Part shown: one piece after another, positions 28,342 to 34,112 of the stretch
Layout of the letters: the number at the start of each line of letters is the position of its first letter
How positions within the stretch are numbered: the first letter of the stretch is position 1
Assembly (NCBI GenBank): GCA_016180655.1
Contig: JACPAT010000127.1
Span: 1 to 34,378, forward strand
Length of the DNA stretch: 34,378 bases
From: Candidatus Methylomirabilota bacterium
GTDB lineage: Bacteria > Methylomirabilota > Methylomirabilia > Methylomirabilales > 2-02-FULL-66-22
Direction of reading: 5' to 3'
The notes under the pieces: model-generated
What the model was told of the DNA's origin: nothing
Database searches by the model: none
What the model saw: only the letters and a program-made list of their open reading frames with translations
Translations under genes and position numbers: made by a program

Positions 28342-29475
28342 ATGCGGACGCTGGCCCAGCGGATCAAGGCCCAGGGGACGGCCCTCGGCTTCGACCTGGT
28401 GGGAATCTCGCCGGTCCACCCACCCGCCCACGGTGACTCCTTCGCCGAATGGCTCCGCCGCGGGTATGACGGGGAGATGGAATACATGGCGCGGACGGCG
28501 GAGAAGCGGCTCCACCCGGGCGAATTCCTGCCCTGGGCCAGGTCGGTCGTCTCGGTCGCGCTGAACTACAACACTCCCCATGGCCGGGAGGCGAAGGCGG
28601 AGGGGATCCGCGGCTGGATCTCCCGGTACGCCTGGGGAAATGACTACCATGACGTGATGCACGTGAAGCTCACGCGGTTGCTGGAGTATGTGCGGGCAGA
28701 GGCGGGGACGGAGGTCCAGGGCCGCATCTTCGTGGATGCCGGGCCGGTCCTGGACCGGGAGGCCGGAGCGCGGGCCGGGATCGGCTGGTACGGGAAGAAC
28801 ACGAACCTCCTGTCCATGACAATCGGCTCGTTCTTCTTCCTGGGCGAGCTGTTCCTGAGCCTGGACCTGGAATGGGACCGGCCGATCCGGGACCGGTGTG
28901 GGCAGTGCCGGCTGTGCCTGGATGCCTGCCCGACCAACGCCTTCGTGGGCCCCTACGTCCTGGATGCCCGCAAGTGCATCTCGTATCTCACCATCGAGCT
29001 GAAGGGGGCCATCCCCCGCGAGCTGCGGCCGCTCATGGGGAATCATATCTTCGGCTGCGATATCTGCCAGGACGTCTGCCCCTACAACACCAAGGGCAAG
29101 CCGACCAAGGAGCAGGCCTTCCATCCCCGCGAGGGGCTGCATGCGCCGGAACTCATTCCCCTCCTGTCGCTCAGCGAGGCGGAATTCAAGGCGAAGTTCG
29201 CGGGGAGCCCCATCCTGCGGGCCAAGCGCCGAGGATTCCTGCGGAACGTCTGCGTGGCCCTGGGGAATCTGAAGCGACCCGAGGCGATGCCCGCGCTGAT
29301 CCGGACGCTCCAGAGCGATCCCGACCCGCTGGTCCGTGGGCACGCGGCCTGGGCCCTGGGACAGATCCGTGCCCCCGAGGCGGAAGCCGCGCTCTGCGCC
29401 ACCGGTTCCCGCGAAACCGACCCCACCGTCCGCGAGGAGATCGAATCCGCGATAAGCACCCTCGACCAAAGTTGA
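28342..29475 (+). CDS. queG: Epoxyqueuosine reductase (QueG)
   Basis: QueG is a cobalamin- and [4Fe-4S]-dependent reductase that makes queuosine from epoxyqueuosine at the tRNA wobble base. The 377-residue protein starts MRTLAQRIKAQGTALGFDLV. The cobalamin/substrate region is FVDAGPVLDREAGARAGIGW. The two ferredoxin-type cluster motifs are CGQCRLCLDACPTNAF and CDICQDVCPYN. A HEAT-like segment ends the protein (DPLVRGHAAWALGQI). ATG 28303 in frame upstream is a second option. The track's start at 28195 reads into the non-coding region. Confidence 0.95.
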   Translation: MRTLAQRIKAQGTALGFDLVGISPVHPPAHGDSFAEWLRRGYDGEMEYMARTAEKRLHPGEFLPWARSVVSVALNYNTPHGREAKAEGIRGWISRYAWGNDYHDVMHVKLTRLLEYVRAEAGTEVQGRIFVDAGPVLDREAGARAGIGWYGKNTNLLSMTIGSFFFLGELFLSLDLEWDRPIRDRCGQCRLCLDACPTNAFVGPYVLDARKCISYLTIELKGAIPRELRPLMGNHIFGCDICQDVCPYNTKGKPTKEQAFHPREGLHAPELIPLLSLSEAEFKAKFAGSPILRAKRRGFLRNVCVALGNLKRPEAMPALIRTLQSDPDPLVRGHAAWALGQIRAPEAEAALCATGSRETDPTVREEIESAISTLDQS

Positions 29476-29528
29476 CGCCTTCCCTCGCTCGGTCTAAGAT
29501 CCGGGCGATTGTGAATGAGGGACGGGCC

Positions 29529-30926
29529 ATGAACTATCCGATCTGGGACCTGCCGATCCTGGGAGGCGGGGTGCTGATCGGCACCATCGCCATCCTGCAC
29601 GTCTTCGTCTCCCACTTCGCCATCGGCGGCGGCCTGTTCCTTGTCCTGACGGAACGCAAGGCATACCGGGACAATGACGCGGACCTCTTGGCCTACCTCC
29701 GGACCCACTCCACATTCTTCGTCCTGGTGGTCCTGGTCTTCGGCGCGGTGAGTGGGGTGGGGATCTGGTGGAGCATCGGGCTGGTCAGCCCGGCGGCCAC
29801 TTCGACCCTGATCCACGTCTTCGTCTGGGTCTGGGCCATGGAGTGGGTGGCGTTTTTCACCGAGATCGCCGCTGCCTTCGTCTACTACTACGGCTGGGAC
29901 CGGCTGAGCCGCCCCACGCACCTGGCCGTCGGGTGGATCTACTTCGGGGCAGCCTGGCTCAGCCTGTTTCAGATCAACGGGATCCTGACCTTCATGCTGA
30001 CGCCGGGCCAGTGGCTGCAGAGCCGATCCCTGGTGGATGCCTTCTTCAATCCCACGATGTGGCCCTCGGCTGTGATCCGGACGGCGGTCGCGGTGGCGCT
30101 GGCCGGCCTGTACGCGCTGGTCACGGCCTCGGTGAACCCGTCGGCCGACCTGCGGCAGCGCCTGACCCGGTACGCGGCGAAATGGCTGCTGCTGGGCGCG
30201 GCGGTGATCCCGGTCGGCGGCCTCTGGTATATCGCCTCGCTGCCCCCGCTGGCGCGAGAGATCTCCATGGGCGGCGCGCCGGCAGTCACGATCTTCGCCG
30301 GGTTGACGATTCTCTTCTCGGCGCTCCTGGTTGGATTGATCTTCGTGTCCGGGTACCTCTACCCGCGGAGCTTCAACATCGGCCTGGCCCTGATCGCCGT
30401 GGTCATCGGCCTGATGACCACGGGAGTGACGGAGTGGGTGCGGGAAGCCGTGCGGAAGCCGTACATCATCTACGGCTACATGTGGTCCAACTCCATCCGG
30501 GTGGCCGACGAGTGGACGCTGCAAGAGAGCGGCCTGCTGCCCCGCGCGAAATGGGCGGCCGTCTCGGACGCCAGCGTGGGAAGTCAGCTCCGGGCCGGCG
30601 AGGAGGTCTTCCGGGTCGCCTGCCAGAGCTGCCATACCGTTCATGGCTACAACGGGATCCGGGTCATGGTGAAGGGATGGCCGCGGGCCCTGATCCGGTA
30701 CAGCCTGGACCACCTGGACGAGCTGAAGGGCTTCATGCCGCCCTTCATCGGGAGTAACGCGGAGCGGGAGGCCCTCACCGACTGGCTCTACGCCATCGGC
30801 CGGCCGGCCACGCCCTCCGCAGCCCAGCGGGTGTCAAGCCGGTTCCCGCTCCCGGCCCAGGTGTGGGCCCAGATCCACGGGGAACTGCGTGGCGCGGAGG
30901 CCGTTCCCGGGAGGAGGAAGCCATGA
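29529..30926 (+). CDS. CydA-like cytochrome bd-type subunit fused to a c-type cytochrome domain
   Basis: The 465-residue protein has about eight membrane segments and a C-terminal haem c domain. The N-terminal helix ILHVFVSHFAIGGG aligns with the CydA helix bearing the haem ligand His19. EWVAFFTEIAAAFVYYYGWDRL corresponds to the CydA proton-path Glu helix and its conserved GWDRL. FFNPTMWPSAVIRTAVAVAL and TEWVREAVRKPYIIYGYM match the later CydA helices and its GRQPW-type segment. CQSCHTVHGYNGI (Cys365) and the likely distal Met in FMPPF give the haem c site. No long quinol (Q) loop is seen, so the donor may be a cytochrome c or another carrier. The next gene overlaps it by four bases. It resembles the 'OR-C' groups of the bd superfamily. 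Confidence 0.75.
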   Translation: MNYPIWDLPILGGGVLIGTIAILHVFVSHFAIGGGLFLVLTERKAYRDNDADLLAYLRTHSTFFVLVVLVFGAVSGVGIWWSIGLVSPAATSTLIHVFVWVWAMEWVAFFTEIAAAFVYYYGWDRLSRPTHLAVGWIYFGAAWLSLFQINGILTFMLTPGQWLQSRSLVDAFFNPTMWPSAVIRTAVAVALAGLYALVTASVNPSADLRQRLTRYAAKWLLLGAAVIPVGGLWYIASLPPLAREISMGGAPAVTIFAGLTILFSALLVGLIFVSGYLYPRSFNIGLALIAVVIGLMTTGVTEWVREAVRKPYIIYGYMWSNSIRVADEWTLQESGLLPRAKWAAVSDASVGSQLRAGEEVFRVACQSCHTVHGYNGIRVMVKGWPRALIRYSLDHLDELKGFMPPFIGSNAEREALTDWLYAIGRPATPSAAQRVSSRFPLPAQVWAQIHGELRGAEAVPGRRKP

Positions 30927-32101
30927 ACGTGGGGGCGCTTCCAGGCCTGGCCTCTCCCCTGATCTTCCTACAGGCCGTCGTGGCAGCGATCCCGGATCCG
31001 GATCCCATTCCGCTGCCCGCCCCCACGGGGGTGTTCGTCTTTCTCCTGGTCCTCACCTTCCTCCTGCATCTGCTGGCCATGAATTTCGTGCTGGGCGGGA
31101 GCCTGATGATGGTGTTCGCATACGCCCAGGGGCGAATGGCGGCCGAGGAGATCGCCCGCCATCACCGGCGCCTGATCGAGATCCTGGCCCGGGCCTTTCC
31201 CGCGACCATCGCGTTCACCATCACGCTGGGGGTCGCCCCCCTCCTGTTCATTCAGGTGCTGTACGGACAACTCTTCTTCAGTTCGTCCATCCTCATGGCG
31301 TGGCCCTGGTTGGCGGTGGTGGGACTCTTGCTGGTGGGCTACTACGCGGCCTACTGGCACGCCTATCGGCACGCGGCGCTGGGGCAGGCGGCGGCCTGGG
31401 TGGCCCTGTTCGTTGCTGCCACCTTCCTGCTCATCGCGTTCCTCTTCGTGAATAACTTCAGTCTCCTCCAGAACCCGGAGGCATGGCGGCCCCTGTACCT
31501 GTCCGACCGGCGCGGGGTACACCTGTACGCGATCTGGGATGCCGGCGTGTTCCCCCGGTACCTGCACTTCGGGTTTGCCGCGCTGGCAATGACGGGCCTG
31601 GTTGTGGCCATGATCGGGCTGCGCCGGCGAGCGCGAGAGCCGGAATTCGCCTGCTGGACCGTGGCGCATGGCGGACGGTGGTTCCTCGGGGCGACGGTGC
31701 TGCAGATGGCATCCGGCCTCTGGCTCCTGTCGAGCCAGCCGGCGCGGGTCCGGGACGCACTGCTCGGCGGCAACTCGCGAGACGCTCTGTTGTTGGCCGT
31801 CGCAGTCGGGTGTGCCCTCGTGGCCCTGGCGGTGCTGGCTCCGCCCTCACGAATCTCTGCCGGGCGACTCGTCGTCGGCTCCGCTGCTATCGGGGTCACG
31901 GTGGTTCTGATGGTCCTGCTGCGCCAGCGGGTCCGGACCCTGTGGCTGGAGCCCTACTTCCGTTACGAGCAGCTTCCAGTGGCTCCCCAGTGGGGGGCCA
32001 TCCTGGTGTTCCTGGGGCTCCTGGCTGTGGGGATCAGCCTCGTGGGTTGGATGGTGTGGCAGTTCTTCTGGCGATCTTCCGATGCACCTGCACAGACCTG
32101 A
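30923..32101 (+). CDS. Second membrane subunit of the bd-like complex, CydA-like
   Basis: The 392-residue protein has about ten membrane segments. LTFLLHLLAMNFVLGGSLMM, with His49, has the same H-x-x-x-x-x-F-x-x-G-G pattern as the first subunit, which suggests the two are ancient paralogues. FARAFPATIAFTITLGVAPLL-type helices and the pair HAYRH and FGFAALAMTG follow. It contains no Cys-x-x-Cys-His. Its ATG overlaps the stop of subunit one (ATGA), with GGGAGGAGGAAG upstream, so the two are made together. It would play the part CydB plays in classical cytochrome bd, though it looks more like CydA. Whether it binds haem is unknown. Confidence 0.65.
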   Translation: MNVGALPGLASPLIFLQAVVAAIPDPDPIPLPAPTGVFVFLLVLTFLLHLLAMNFVLGGSLMMVFAYAQGRMAAEEIARHHRRLIEILARAFPATIAFTITLGVAPLLFIQVLYGQLFFSSSILMAWPWLAVVGLLLVGYYAAYWHAYRHAALGQAAAWVALFVAATFLLIAFLFVNNFSLLQNPEAWRPLYLSDRRGVHLYAIWDAGVFPRYLHFGFAALAMTGLVVAMIGLRRRAREPEFACWTVAHGGRWFLGATVLQMASGLWLLSSQPARVRDALLGGNSRDALLLAVAVGCALVALAVLAPPSRISAGRLVVGSAAIGVTVVLMVLLRQRVRTLWLEPYFRYEQLPVAPQWGAILVFLGLLAVGISLVGWMVWQFFWRSSDAPAQT

Positions 32102-32193
32102 CGAACCCCTCCCGTGCCTGGGACGCCGTCCCCGGTCGCGCCGCGGGGCGATACCCTCCTGATTCCCTCCACCTCCTTCCCATGCTGATCGTA

Positions 32194-32250
32194 TGGTATA
32201 GTCCATCCTTGCCGGGACGGCGGTTCGACGCCAGCGGGAGGCGCTGGCGT
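32194..32250 (+). promoter_or_regulatory. Extended -10 promoter and leader hairpin of the amidohydrolase
   Basis: TGGTATAGT (32194-32202) is an extended -10. In the leader ACGCCAGC (32228-32235) and GCTGGCGT (32243-32250) form a perfect 8-bp stem. Confidence 0.5.
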
Positions 32251-32330
32251 GGCTGTGACGACAGATGGCGGGCGGGGACGATCGCGAAGTCGGGGAGACG
32301 CAGCACTCGGTTCGCATTGGGGGAGGGATC

Positions 32331-33304
32331 ATGAGAACTGAACTCGGCGAGATGCGGGTGATAGATGCCCATGCGCATTTCTTCTCGTACCCGTTCTTCA
32401 TGCAGTTCGTGGAGGCGCTCAGGCAGGGCCTGCCCCGCGACGACCCGTATCGCGGAGTGGCGGAGCGGCTGGGGTGGGAACTGCCCACACCGGACCACAC
32501 GGCCCTGGGCAGGCGCTGGATTCAGGAGATGGACAAACACGGTCTGGACCGGATGGTCCTGATCGCCAGCCTCCCGGGAGACGAGGACTCCATCCTGGCG
32601 GCGGTGCGCACGTTCCCACGGCGGATCATCGGGTACTTCATGCTGGACCCGACCCGGGCCGATGCGGCGGAGCGGACCAAGAAGGCACTGGCGGACGGGC
32701 TGCGGGGGGTCTGCCTGTTCCCGGCAATGCACCACTTCCACGTGTGGGAGGAGCGATGCTATCCAGTGTACGAGGCGGCGCAGGAAGCCCGGGCGATCGT
32801 CTTCACCCACTTCGGCATCCTGAAGATCGGTGTCCGGGACAAGCTGGGCTTGCCCAGCCGGTTCGACATGCGCTTCTCGAACCCCATCGACCTGCACCGG
32901 GTGGCCAAGGACTTCCCCAAGACCACCTTCGTCATGCCCCACTTCGGCTGCGGCTTCCTGCGGGAGGCGCTGATCGTGGGGGATCAGTGTCCGAACGTCT
33001 GCGTGGACACCTCCAGCTCCAACGCCTGGGTGAACACCATGCCCACTGCGTGGACACCTCCAGCTCCAACGCCTGGGTGAACACCATGCCCACCCCGCTC
33101 ACCCTGACGGATCTCTTCCGGGCGGCCCTGCGGGTGTTCGGGCCGGAGCGGATCCTGTTCGGTACCGACTCGACCTTCCTTCCGCGGGGGTGGCGCCGGG
33201 ACATCTTCGATGCCCAGGTGCAGGCCCTCAAGGCGCTGGAGGCGACGACCCAGCAGGCGCGGCTGATCTTCGGCGGAAACCTGGCTCGCCTGCTGCAAGT
33301 CTGA
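32331..33304 (+). pseudogene. Amidohydrolase (Amidohydro_2 type) broken by a 47-bp tandem duplication
   Basis: ATG 32331 has GGGAGGG upstream. The TIM-barrel metal hydrolase starts MRVIDAHAHFFSYPF, with the metal-binding His-x-His, and continues VFTHFG and TFVMPHFGCGFLREALIVGD. After NVCVDTSSSNAWVNTMPT the frame ends early at 33080. The neighbouring frame supplies the rest: PLTLTDLFRAALRVFGPERI, LFGTDSTFLPRG with the catalytic Asp, and RLIFGGNLARLLQV to the stop at 33304. The two frames overlap in an exact duplication of 47 bases. Removing one copy restores a single 308-residue protein. If the duplication is real, the gene is off; if it is an assembly slip, the gene is intact. Confidence 0.85.
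33000..33093. repeat. Exact 47-bp tandem duplication
   Basis: Bases 33000-33046 and 33047-33093 are identical (both start TGCGTGGACACCTCCAGC). 47 is not a multiple of three, so it shifts the amidohydrolase frame. Confidence 0.97.
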
Positions 33305-33318
33305 GACGCGGACATCAC

Positions 33319-33388
33319 TTATCCGCAGATTACGCAGATTGCGCAGATTTCTCGGATTAACGGGAACCACGTAACCGCAGATTTCTTG
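33319..33388. repeat. GCAGATT word repeat, locus 3
   Basis: TTATCCGCAGATTACGCAGA and nine further bases match 14061-14089 exactly. The run continues with CAGATTTCTC and ends with ACCGCAGATTTC at about 33386. Confidence 0.85.
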
Positions 33389-33710
33389 GAAGCAAAACGG
33401 CCCGATCCGGCGGTGGATCGGGCCGTTTTACTTCAGGATGACGGATCTCGGAAGAGTATGCGGTGGGCGGGTCCAGTCCGCACTCCCCGGTCTTGAAGTG
33501 GAAGTCATAGCCGTGCCACGGGCAGACGATCCGCAGTCCCTCGATCACCCCGTCGGCGAGCGGGCCCCCCTCGTGAGGGCAGGCGGCCTCCAGCGCGTAA
33601 TAGCGTCCCCCGACGTAGAAGAGGGCGATGCGCTGGCCGTCCACCTGAACCACCTTGGCCTGGCCGTCGGCCAGGTCACCCACCCTCCCCACTTTGACGA
33701 ACTTCGCCAT
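33357..33710 (-). CDS. Small Rieske-type ferredoxin, altered C-terminus
   Basis: From ATG 33710 the product starts MAKFVKVGRVGDLADGQAKV and has the Rieske [2Fe-2S] motifs CPHEGGPL and CPWHGYDF. It is close to the neighbouring Rieske protein. After GECGLDPPTAYSS the sequence no longer resembles a Rieske tail; the ORF reads on through the terminator hairpin (EVKRPDPPPDRAVLL) and into the word repeat. So the last beta strand has been lost or replaced. A GTG at 33740 overlaps the stop of the upstream Rieske gene and is another start. The protein would pass electrons to an unknown oxygenase or reductase, none of which is encoded nearby. Confidence 0.75.
   Translation of the reverse strand: MAKFVKVGRVGDLADGQAKVVQVDGQRIALFYVGGRYYALEAACPHEGGPLADGVIEGLRIVCPWHGYDFHFKTGECGLDPPTAYSSEIRHPEVKRPDPPPDRAVLLPRNLRLRGSR
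33394..33429. terminator. Bidirectional terminator
   Basis: AAAACGGCCCGATCC and GGATCGGGCCGTTTT form a perfect 15-bp inverted repeat with a 6-base loop, with T-runs in both directions. It lies between the convergent amidohydrolase and Rieske genes, but inside the 3' end of the Rieske ORF. Confidence 0.92.
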
Positions 33711-33736
33711 GCGTAGAGCCGTCGGGGGCGATCCGG

Positions 33737-34045
33737 TCACGCCACCTCGATGAGAAGGTCATTCCCCTCGGTCTTGACGATGTAGGTCATGACCCGGAGA
33801 TCGGAGTCGACGGAGCACTCGCCCGTCTTCACGTTGAAGTCATATCCATGCCACGGGCAGATGATCGAGTCGCCATCCACCTCGCCCTCGTGAAGCGGCC
33901 CTTCTTCGTGCGGGCACACGGCGCCCATGGCATAGTAGGTACCGTTCACATTGAAGAGCGCGATGTCCTGCCCATCCACCTGAACCAATTTTCCCTGACC
34001 GGGCGTGAGTTCGTTGATCTGGCCGACCTTGATCACACGAGCCAT
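33737..34045 (-). CDS. Small Rieske-type ferredoxin
   Basis: The 102-residue protein starts MARVIKVGQINELTPGQGKL and carries CPHEEGPL and CPWHGYDF, the two Cys-His pairs that bind the [2Fe-2S] cluster. The tail (DSDLRVMTYIVKTEGNDLLI) is a normal Rieske end. This is the NirD/biphenyl-dioxygenase-ferredoxin type, an electron carrier in the cytoplasm. ATG 34045 has GGAGG about ten bases upstream. It is followed by the second Rieske gene and preceded by the small helical gene. Confidence 0.92.
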   Translation of the reverse strand: MARVIKVGQINELTPGQGKLVQVDGQDIALFNVNGTYYAMGAVCPHEEGPLHEGEVDGDSIICPWHGYDFNVKTGECSVDSDLRVMTYIVKTEGNDLLIEVA

Positions 34046-34112
34046 GTTCCGCAGGCCTCCGGCCGTGATCGGGACACCCGCGTGCCCGTCGTGCGGGCGA
34101 GACGGTATCACA

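Follow-up and report, generated by a model that had tools for sequence, protein, structure and literature searches.

The window, a 34,378-nucleotide stretch of Candidatus Methylomirabilota contig JACPAT010000127.1, carries two adjacent genes, SU1 and SU2, whose positions and conserved features are collected in Table 1. A purine-rich stretch resembling a ribosome-binding site lies 5′ of both starts, and the overlap of stop and start codons agrees with the translational coupling proposed in a preliminary description of this DNA. The pair is flanked by a QueG-type gene upstream and an amidohydrolase gene downstream, neither of which has any bearing on the function of SU1-SU2, and no bc genes adjoin the pair in the window.

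The genome from which the window derives is 82% complete, and its wider content was probed by family searches. At this completeness SU1 is the one PF01654 protein found. A COX1-type oxidase is also encoded, as are two Rieske-cytochrome b pairs located elsewhere in the genome.

Within the amidohydrolase gene (32325-33304), a perfect 47-base tandem duplication (32999-33093) shifts the reading frame. The corresponding gene of a sister species (L002) reads through and does not contain the duplication, which could be either an assembly error or a real mutation. The minus strand at 33360-34111 holds a small Rieske-type ferredoxin gene (PF00355) next to another of the same kind, and the DNA of the two is similar.

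Table 1. Genes, signals and conserved codons of the SU1-SU2 locus (window coordinates)
Feature	Position	Strand	Basis
Promoter-like site TTGACG-17-TAAGAT, directly 5′ of SU1	29472..29500	+	Consensus scan only; 1 found against 0.3 expected
SU1 gene	29529..30926	+	ATG 29529 to TGA 30926; 465 aa; ORF intact
H24 codon (E. coli CydA H19)	29598..29600	+	CydA alignment; His in 64/66 SU1
E105 ... E112 (E. coli E99, E107)	29841..29864	+	E in 64/66; E or D in 66/66
E302-R305-E306-R309-K310-P311-Y312 motif	30432..30464	+	E302, R305, P311 in 66/66; E306, R309 in 64/66
CQSCH haem c attachment site, residues 365-369	30621..30635	+	PF13442; C365, C368, H369 each in 64/66
ATGA stop/start overlap, SU1/SU2 coupling	30923..30926	+	Read from sequence
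SU2 gene	30923..32101	+	ATG 30923 to TGA 32101; 392 aa; ORF intact
SU2 H49 codon, invariant TM1 His (CydA H19)	31067..31069	+	His in 65/65 SU2
SU2 H215 codon, aligned with CydA H186 (b558 ligand)	31565..31567	+	hhalign: H215 ~ SU1 I183; CydA alignment: I183 ~ E. coli H186

A CydA homologue with a haem c domain and its CydA-type partner

SU1 belongs to the cytochrome bd superfamily by Pfam, profile and fold. It matches PF01654 (Cyt_bd_oxida_I) at 54.2 bits (cut-off 26.2) and PF13442 (Cytochrome_CBB3) at 32.4 bits (cut-off 27), and aligns to CydA profiles with an hhalign E of 1.4e-13. An AlphaFold model of moderate confidence (6-row alignment, mean pLDDT 67), folded without haems and without the partner, consists of eight membrane helices followed by the c domain. 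The best 10 Foldseek matches of this model in the PDB are all CydA chains, with CydB chains next. Of the two outcomes by which the preliminary description would have been refuted, a position outside the bd superfamily and a lack of every haem b ligand, neither occurred; SU1 falls with CydA by all three approaches and keeps the ligands of the active-site haems.

In E. coli CydA, H19 is a ligand of the active-site haem and E445 of haem b595, while E99 and E107 belong to the proton path and active site and, together with E445, are needed for proton-coupled O2 reduction. H186 and M393 are the ligands of haem b558, and K252 and E257 lie in the quinol loop. Residues were mapped onto E. coli CydA (NC_000913 b0733) and canonical CydA of the same phylum using 47 full-length SU1 sequences. 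The E. coli positions H19, E99, E107, E445, R448 and P450 correspond to H24, E105, E112, E306, R309 and P311 of SU1, and all six are kept in 47/47 sequences, save for a single E107-to-D replacement. Residues R184, E302 and R305 are invariant in these SU1 sequences and specific to them relative to CydA. Along with the CydA His, the preliminary description had recognized a GWDRL region and a GRQPW-like region, which map to residues 122-126 and to VRKPY (308-312). In the larger set of 66 loci, the pattern of kept residues breaks in two divergent rows only.

The quinol-related features of CydA are missing from SU1. None of the 47 full-length sequences has a residue in the K252 or E257 column, no SU1 in that alignment has His in the H186 column, and the M393 equivalent is not conserved among SU1 (T260 in the window). 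The residues named for checking in the preliminary description thus divide, with the equivalents of Glu99 and Glu107 kept and those of His186 and Met393 absent. The region of E. coli CydA from ~220 to 380 has shrunk to ~42 residues; the Q loop is therefore gone, as had been suspected.

The CxxCH cytochrome domain that had been read at the end of SU1 is the PF13442 domain, for which M403, kept in 64/66 sequences, is the probable sixth haem ligand. SU1 proteins contain one to three CxxCH motifs, or eight in L133, and only the two divergent rows, from which the other ligands have gone as well, have none. Two or three motifs occur in many Acidobacteriota SU1 (L059-L063, L065-L080, L083), and one in the clade with Rieske-cytochrome b genes. 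The N-terminus of SU1 has no positive charge, and positive charge is found mostly in loops 1-2, 3-4 and 5-6, a pattern by which the c domain and the C-terminus should face the periplasm.

Neither SU2 nor 8-9 of its relatives has a Pfam match, and the SU2 profile has no match among PDB sequences; SU2 is therefore placed only by profile-profile and fold comparison. Its profile aligns to that of SU1 with an hhalign E of 3.7e-15, and the two also cross-match in HMM searches. The match to CydA is weak (E 2e-4), and that to CydB has an E of 0.61 and a probability of 0.1. The AlphaFold model of SU2 (mean pLDDT 78) has about nine predicted TM helices, and nine CydA chains rank ahead of any CydB in the Foldseek comparison. 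Together, the profile and fold matches make SU2 a CydA paralogue. A CydB identity is ruled out by the profile and by the order of structural matches, which bears out the earlier proposal of two CydA-like subunits, one of them with haem c.

The TM1 helix that had been noticed in both subunits contains the motif LH49LLAMNFVLGG in SU2. H215, at the position of the b558 ligand, is His in 30/38 SU2 proteins from loci without Rieske-cytochrome b genes and in 1/27 from loci with them. SU2 also has an RxxxR motif (R334, R338), which hhalign shifts by four residues against R305/R309 of SU1; because this register is ambiguous, no haem claim for SU2 is built on it. In Thermus and Methylosinus, SU2 is annotated as ‘hypothetical protein’, and the comparison with SU1 gives context to a protein without a Pfam family.

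Pairing, operons and distribution

SU1 is accompanied by SU2 in 65 of the 66 loci examined. The order is SU1-SU2 in 37 loci, SU2-Rieske-cytochrome b-SU1 in 27 and SU2-SU1 in one, while one locus has no SU2; the pair thus occurs without adjacent bc genes in 38 loci. In L017 and L135, Pfam verified the identity of both the Rieske and the cytochrome b gene. Recurrence of the pair at this frequency, together with the SU1-SU2 profile match, excludes chance. Distances among SU1 and SU2 proteins correlate with an r of 0.91 over 64 pairs (0/1000 permutations as high), as expected for co-inherited partners, although shared ancestry alone could also yield this value. The suggestion that a c-type carrier feeds the enzyme gains support from the CxxCH motif in 64/66 SU1 proteins and from the Rieske-cytochrome b genes inside 27/66 operons.

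In the superfamily tree, long branches separate the families, and the tree is therefore read only within families. The Rieske-cytochrome b arrangement forms a single clade (SH-aLRT 89), and the SU1 of the window clusters with plain pairs from Acidobacteriota, Methylomirabilota and Kryptonium (support 98 and 95). In a search for conserved neighbors that covered mostly Acidobacteriota loci, the Rieske and cytochrome b genes were the only ones on the same strand. Other neighbor clusters were dismissed as shadow ORFs of these genes or as opposite-strand genes. In Methylosinus, a separate c-type cytochrome gene lies 3′ of SU2. On Agrobacterium and Methylosinus plasmids, the pair is followed by genes for a membrane histidine kinase of the PilS-like type and for a response regulator (L019:10757-12545, L021:11029-12925), which suggests dedicated redox or oxygen control. 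A gene for a DUF2231 membrane protein lies close to the pair in L003, which shares its contig with L014 (G032, Methylomirabilota).

Relatives are found in Terriglobia/Acidobacteria (Acidobacteriota), in Kryptonium and its phylum, and in Methylomirabilota, and plasmid-borne relatives in Thermus thermophilus, Agrobacterium and Methylosinus. For the phylum of the Terriglobia locus, 89 of 396 sampled genomes are positive at E <= 1e-40; the corresponding figures are 17 of 297 for the phylum of Kryptonium and 19 of 68 for that of L017. A single-sequence search of 95 Methylomirabilota genomes returned two intact and two partial or remnant copies, plus distant CydA matches. In the sister species G001 (L002, contig 336), sequence corresponding to window positions 30340-30453 is joined to 31740-31931 and then to 32229 onward. 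Compared over window positions 30340-33568, this remnant, located at the end of its contig, has deletions of ~1.3 kb and ~0.3 kb. The rarity of the pair in the phylum and the fragments in G001 indicate that the SU1-SU2 enzyme is dispensable in this lineage.

Two relatives, L135 and L136, have diverged much further. Neither CxxCH nor the equivalents of H19, E99 and E445 remain in their SU1, whose match to PF01654 is also gone; the SU2 there keeps its invariant His. These proteins are encoded in COX2-UbiA family-cytochrome c-SU2-Rieske-cytochrome b-SU1 operons (L135:2244-6389, L136:2168-6392), where a dead bd-type shell has apparently been retained alongside the bc genes and a subunit of a haem-copper oxidase. 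With ligands and CxxCH lost, SU1 can hardly be an oxidase in these organisms and must be structural, and its retention in the operon supports a physical association with the bc subunits. A CydA fold alone is consequently no proof of an oxidase. In L133 (4983-7688, order SU2-SU1), the SU1 relative is a protein of 902 aa with eight CxxCH, and its C-terminal part matches multihaem families (Cytochrome_C7, MtrC/MtrF-like).

Class assignment, proposed mechanism and alternatives

OR-C is said to be a family of the cytochrome bd superfamily in the work of Murali, Gennis and Hemp of 2021 (ISME J 15:3534), and its ‘C’ we take to denote the fused haem c. A 2021 review restates the classification of that year, with three families in the superfamily, one with a quinol site and others for which cytochrome c or another donor has been proposed (PMC8509429). 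According to the review, all biochemically characterized bd-type cytochromes are quinol oxidases, and a bd enzyme with another donor has yet to be obtained (PMC8509429). In the scheme as restated there, OR-C proteins keep the bd active-site residues, have no quinol site and are proposed to use cytochrome c, all of which resembles SU1 (PMC8509429). In the full texts searched, OR-C proteins are named with no further description.

The canonical CydAB enzymes (qOR) have the CydA fold and active-site residues in common with SU1. They differ in their quinol site (K252, E257), b558 ligands, Q loop and CydB partner, all of which are absent from SU1/SU2. The OR-C features, a bd active site without a quinol site and a fused c haem with a Met ligand, are all found. 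OR-C would be the best reading, a name assigned here by features. We know of no purified member of the SU1-SU2 family, which is of a known kind and widespread, though biochemically almost untouched and essentially uncharacterized. The SU2 partner and the Rieske-cytochrome b operon may or may not have been noticed earlier.

A heterodimer of two CydA-type paralogues, instead of CydA and CydB, is also found in the archaeal CydAA′ of Caldivirga maquilingensis, which SU1 and its paralogue SU2 resemble. CydAA′ has reportedly been shown to oxidize quinol and is not known to have a fused haem c. SU1, in contrast, has no quinol site and carries a fused cytochrome c domain.

The OR-N bd-like oxidases of Nitrospira and Nitrospina are likewise related to CydA, have no quinol site and are proposed to use a cytochrome c donor (PMC10839748, PMC3578206). 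They possess about 14 helices, against eight predicted TM helices plus a c domain in SU1. Here the OR-N label, applied to proteins of Rokubacteria-like genomes of the phylum, is given by likeness of description and not by reference sequences. One such protein, L011, has no CxxCH, and in the tree a very long branch leads to the OR-N-like rows, which group apart with a support of 99. A search with one OR-N-like protein produced matches in 60/95 genomes of the phylum, a few of the weak ones being canonical CydA, and found no such protein in the source genome. An OR-N identity for SU1 was rejected on its eight TM helices and fused c domain and on the separate clade.

From the observed homology, residue pattern, pairing and Rieske-cytochrome b operons, SU1-SU2 is likely a heterodimeric, cytochrome c-fed oxygen reductase of the bd type and of the OR-C kind, whose haem content, electron donor, topology and charge separation we infer as follows. 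SU1 would hold the catalytic b/d-type haem pair by means of helices 1-4 and the helix that contains E306, and its periplasmic cytochrome c domain would serve as the electron entry in place of haem b558 and the quinol site. SU2 would be a degenerate CydA paralogue in the structural place of CydB, as CydA′ is in CydAA′, and may itself bind a haem. Electrons would pass from quinol through a Rieske-cytochrome b complex to the periplasmic haem c of SU1, and from there to the diheme site and O2. In 27 loci the genes for the putative complex separate SU2 from SU1; the present organism encodes it away from the pair. Protons would be drawn from the cytoplasm past E105/E112. More tentatively, the role of b558 is perhaps split between the haem c of SU1 and a haem b of SU2, bound through the TM1 His and, in the plain pairs, the H186-equivalent His. 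The same tentative reading would unite all four subunits of the Rieske-cytochrome b clade in one quinol-to-oxygen bc-bd supercomplex.

Conservation of residues fits a diheme site but leaves the substrate unfixed, O2 being the presumed one. Such a site could also bind nitric oxide, and the sensor kinase and response regulator behind the pair in Agrobacterium and Methylosinus would suit a stress-induced enzyme. Nevertheless, a detoxifying reductase of nitric oxide or peroxide, fed by a c-type cytochrome, seems unlikely, as the E99, E107 and E445 equivalents are kept almost without exception and the Rieske-cytochrome b operons resemble an energy-conserving respiratory module. The ligand-less SU1 retained in the L135 and L136 operons would be in keeping with a pair that serves a bc complex mainly through structure or electron wiring and is no terminal oxidase; as an account of the pair in general this is quite improbable, given that all other SU1, including that of the window, keep their ligands and that no bc genes adjoin the pair in 38 loci.

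The rarity of the pair in the phylum and its remnants in G001 could also mean that the copy in this lineage was acquired recently or is decaying and does nothing important. This explanation is very improbable for the window, where both ORFs are full length and the coupling and otherwise invariant residues are intact. An ordinary quinol-oxidizing cytochrome bd that has merely gained a cytochrome c domain would account for the PF01654 membership of SU1, yet it is scarcely credible and already contradicted by the deleted K252/E257 loop, the absent H186 and M393, and a partner that is not CydB.

Some members of the family come from named strains: Thermus thermophilus SNM1-1 and SNM1-7, Methylosinus sp. 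C49 and Agrobacterium LN-1. Together with the fused donor domain and the quinol-oxidizing genes of 27 operons, these strains open the question of the donor to experiment. A widespread oxidase, encoded in 22% of sampled genomes of the phylum of the Terriglobia locus, is probably hidden where SU1 is annotated as ‘cytochrome c’.
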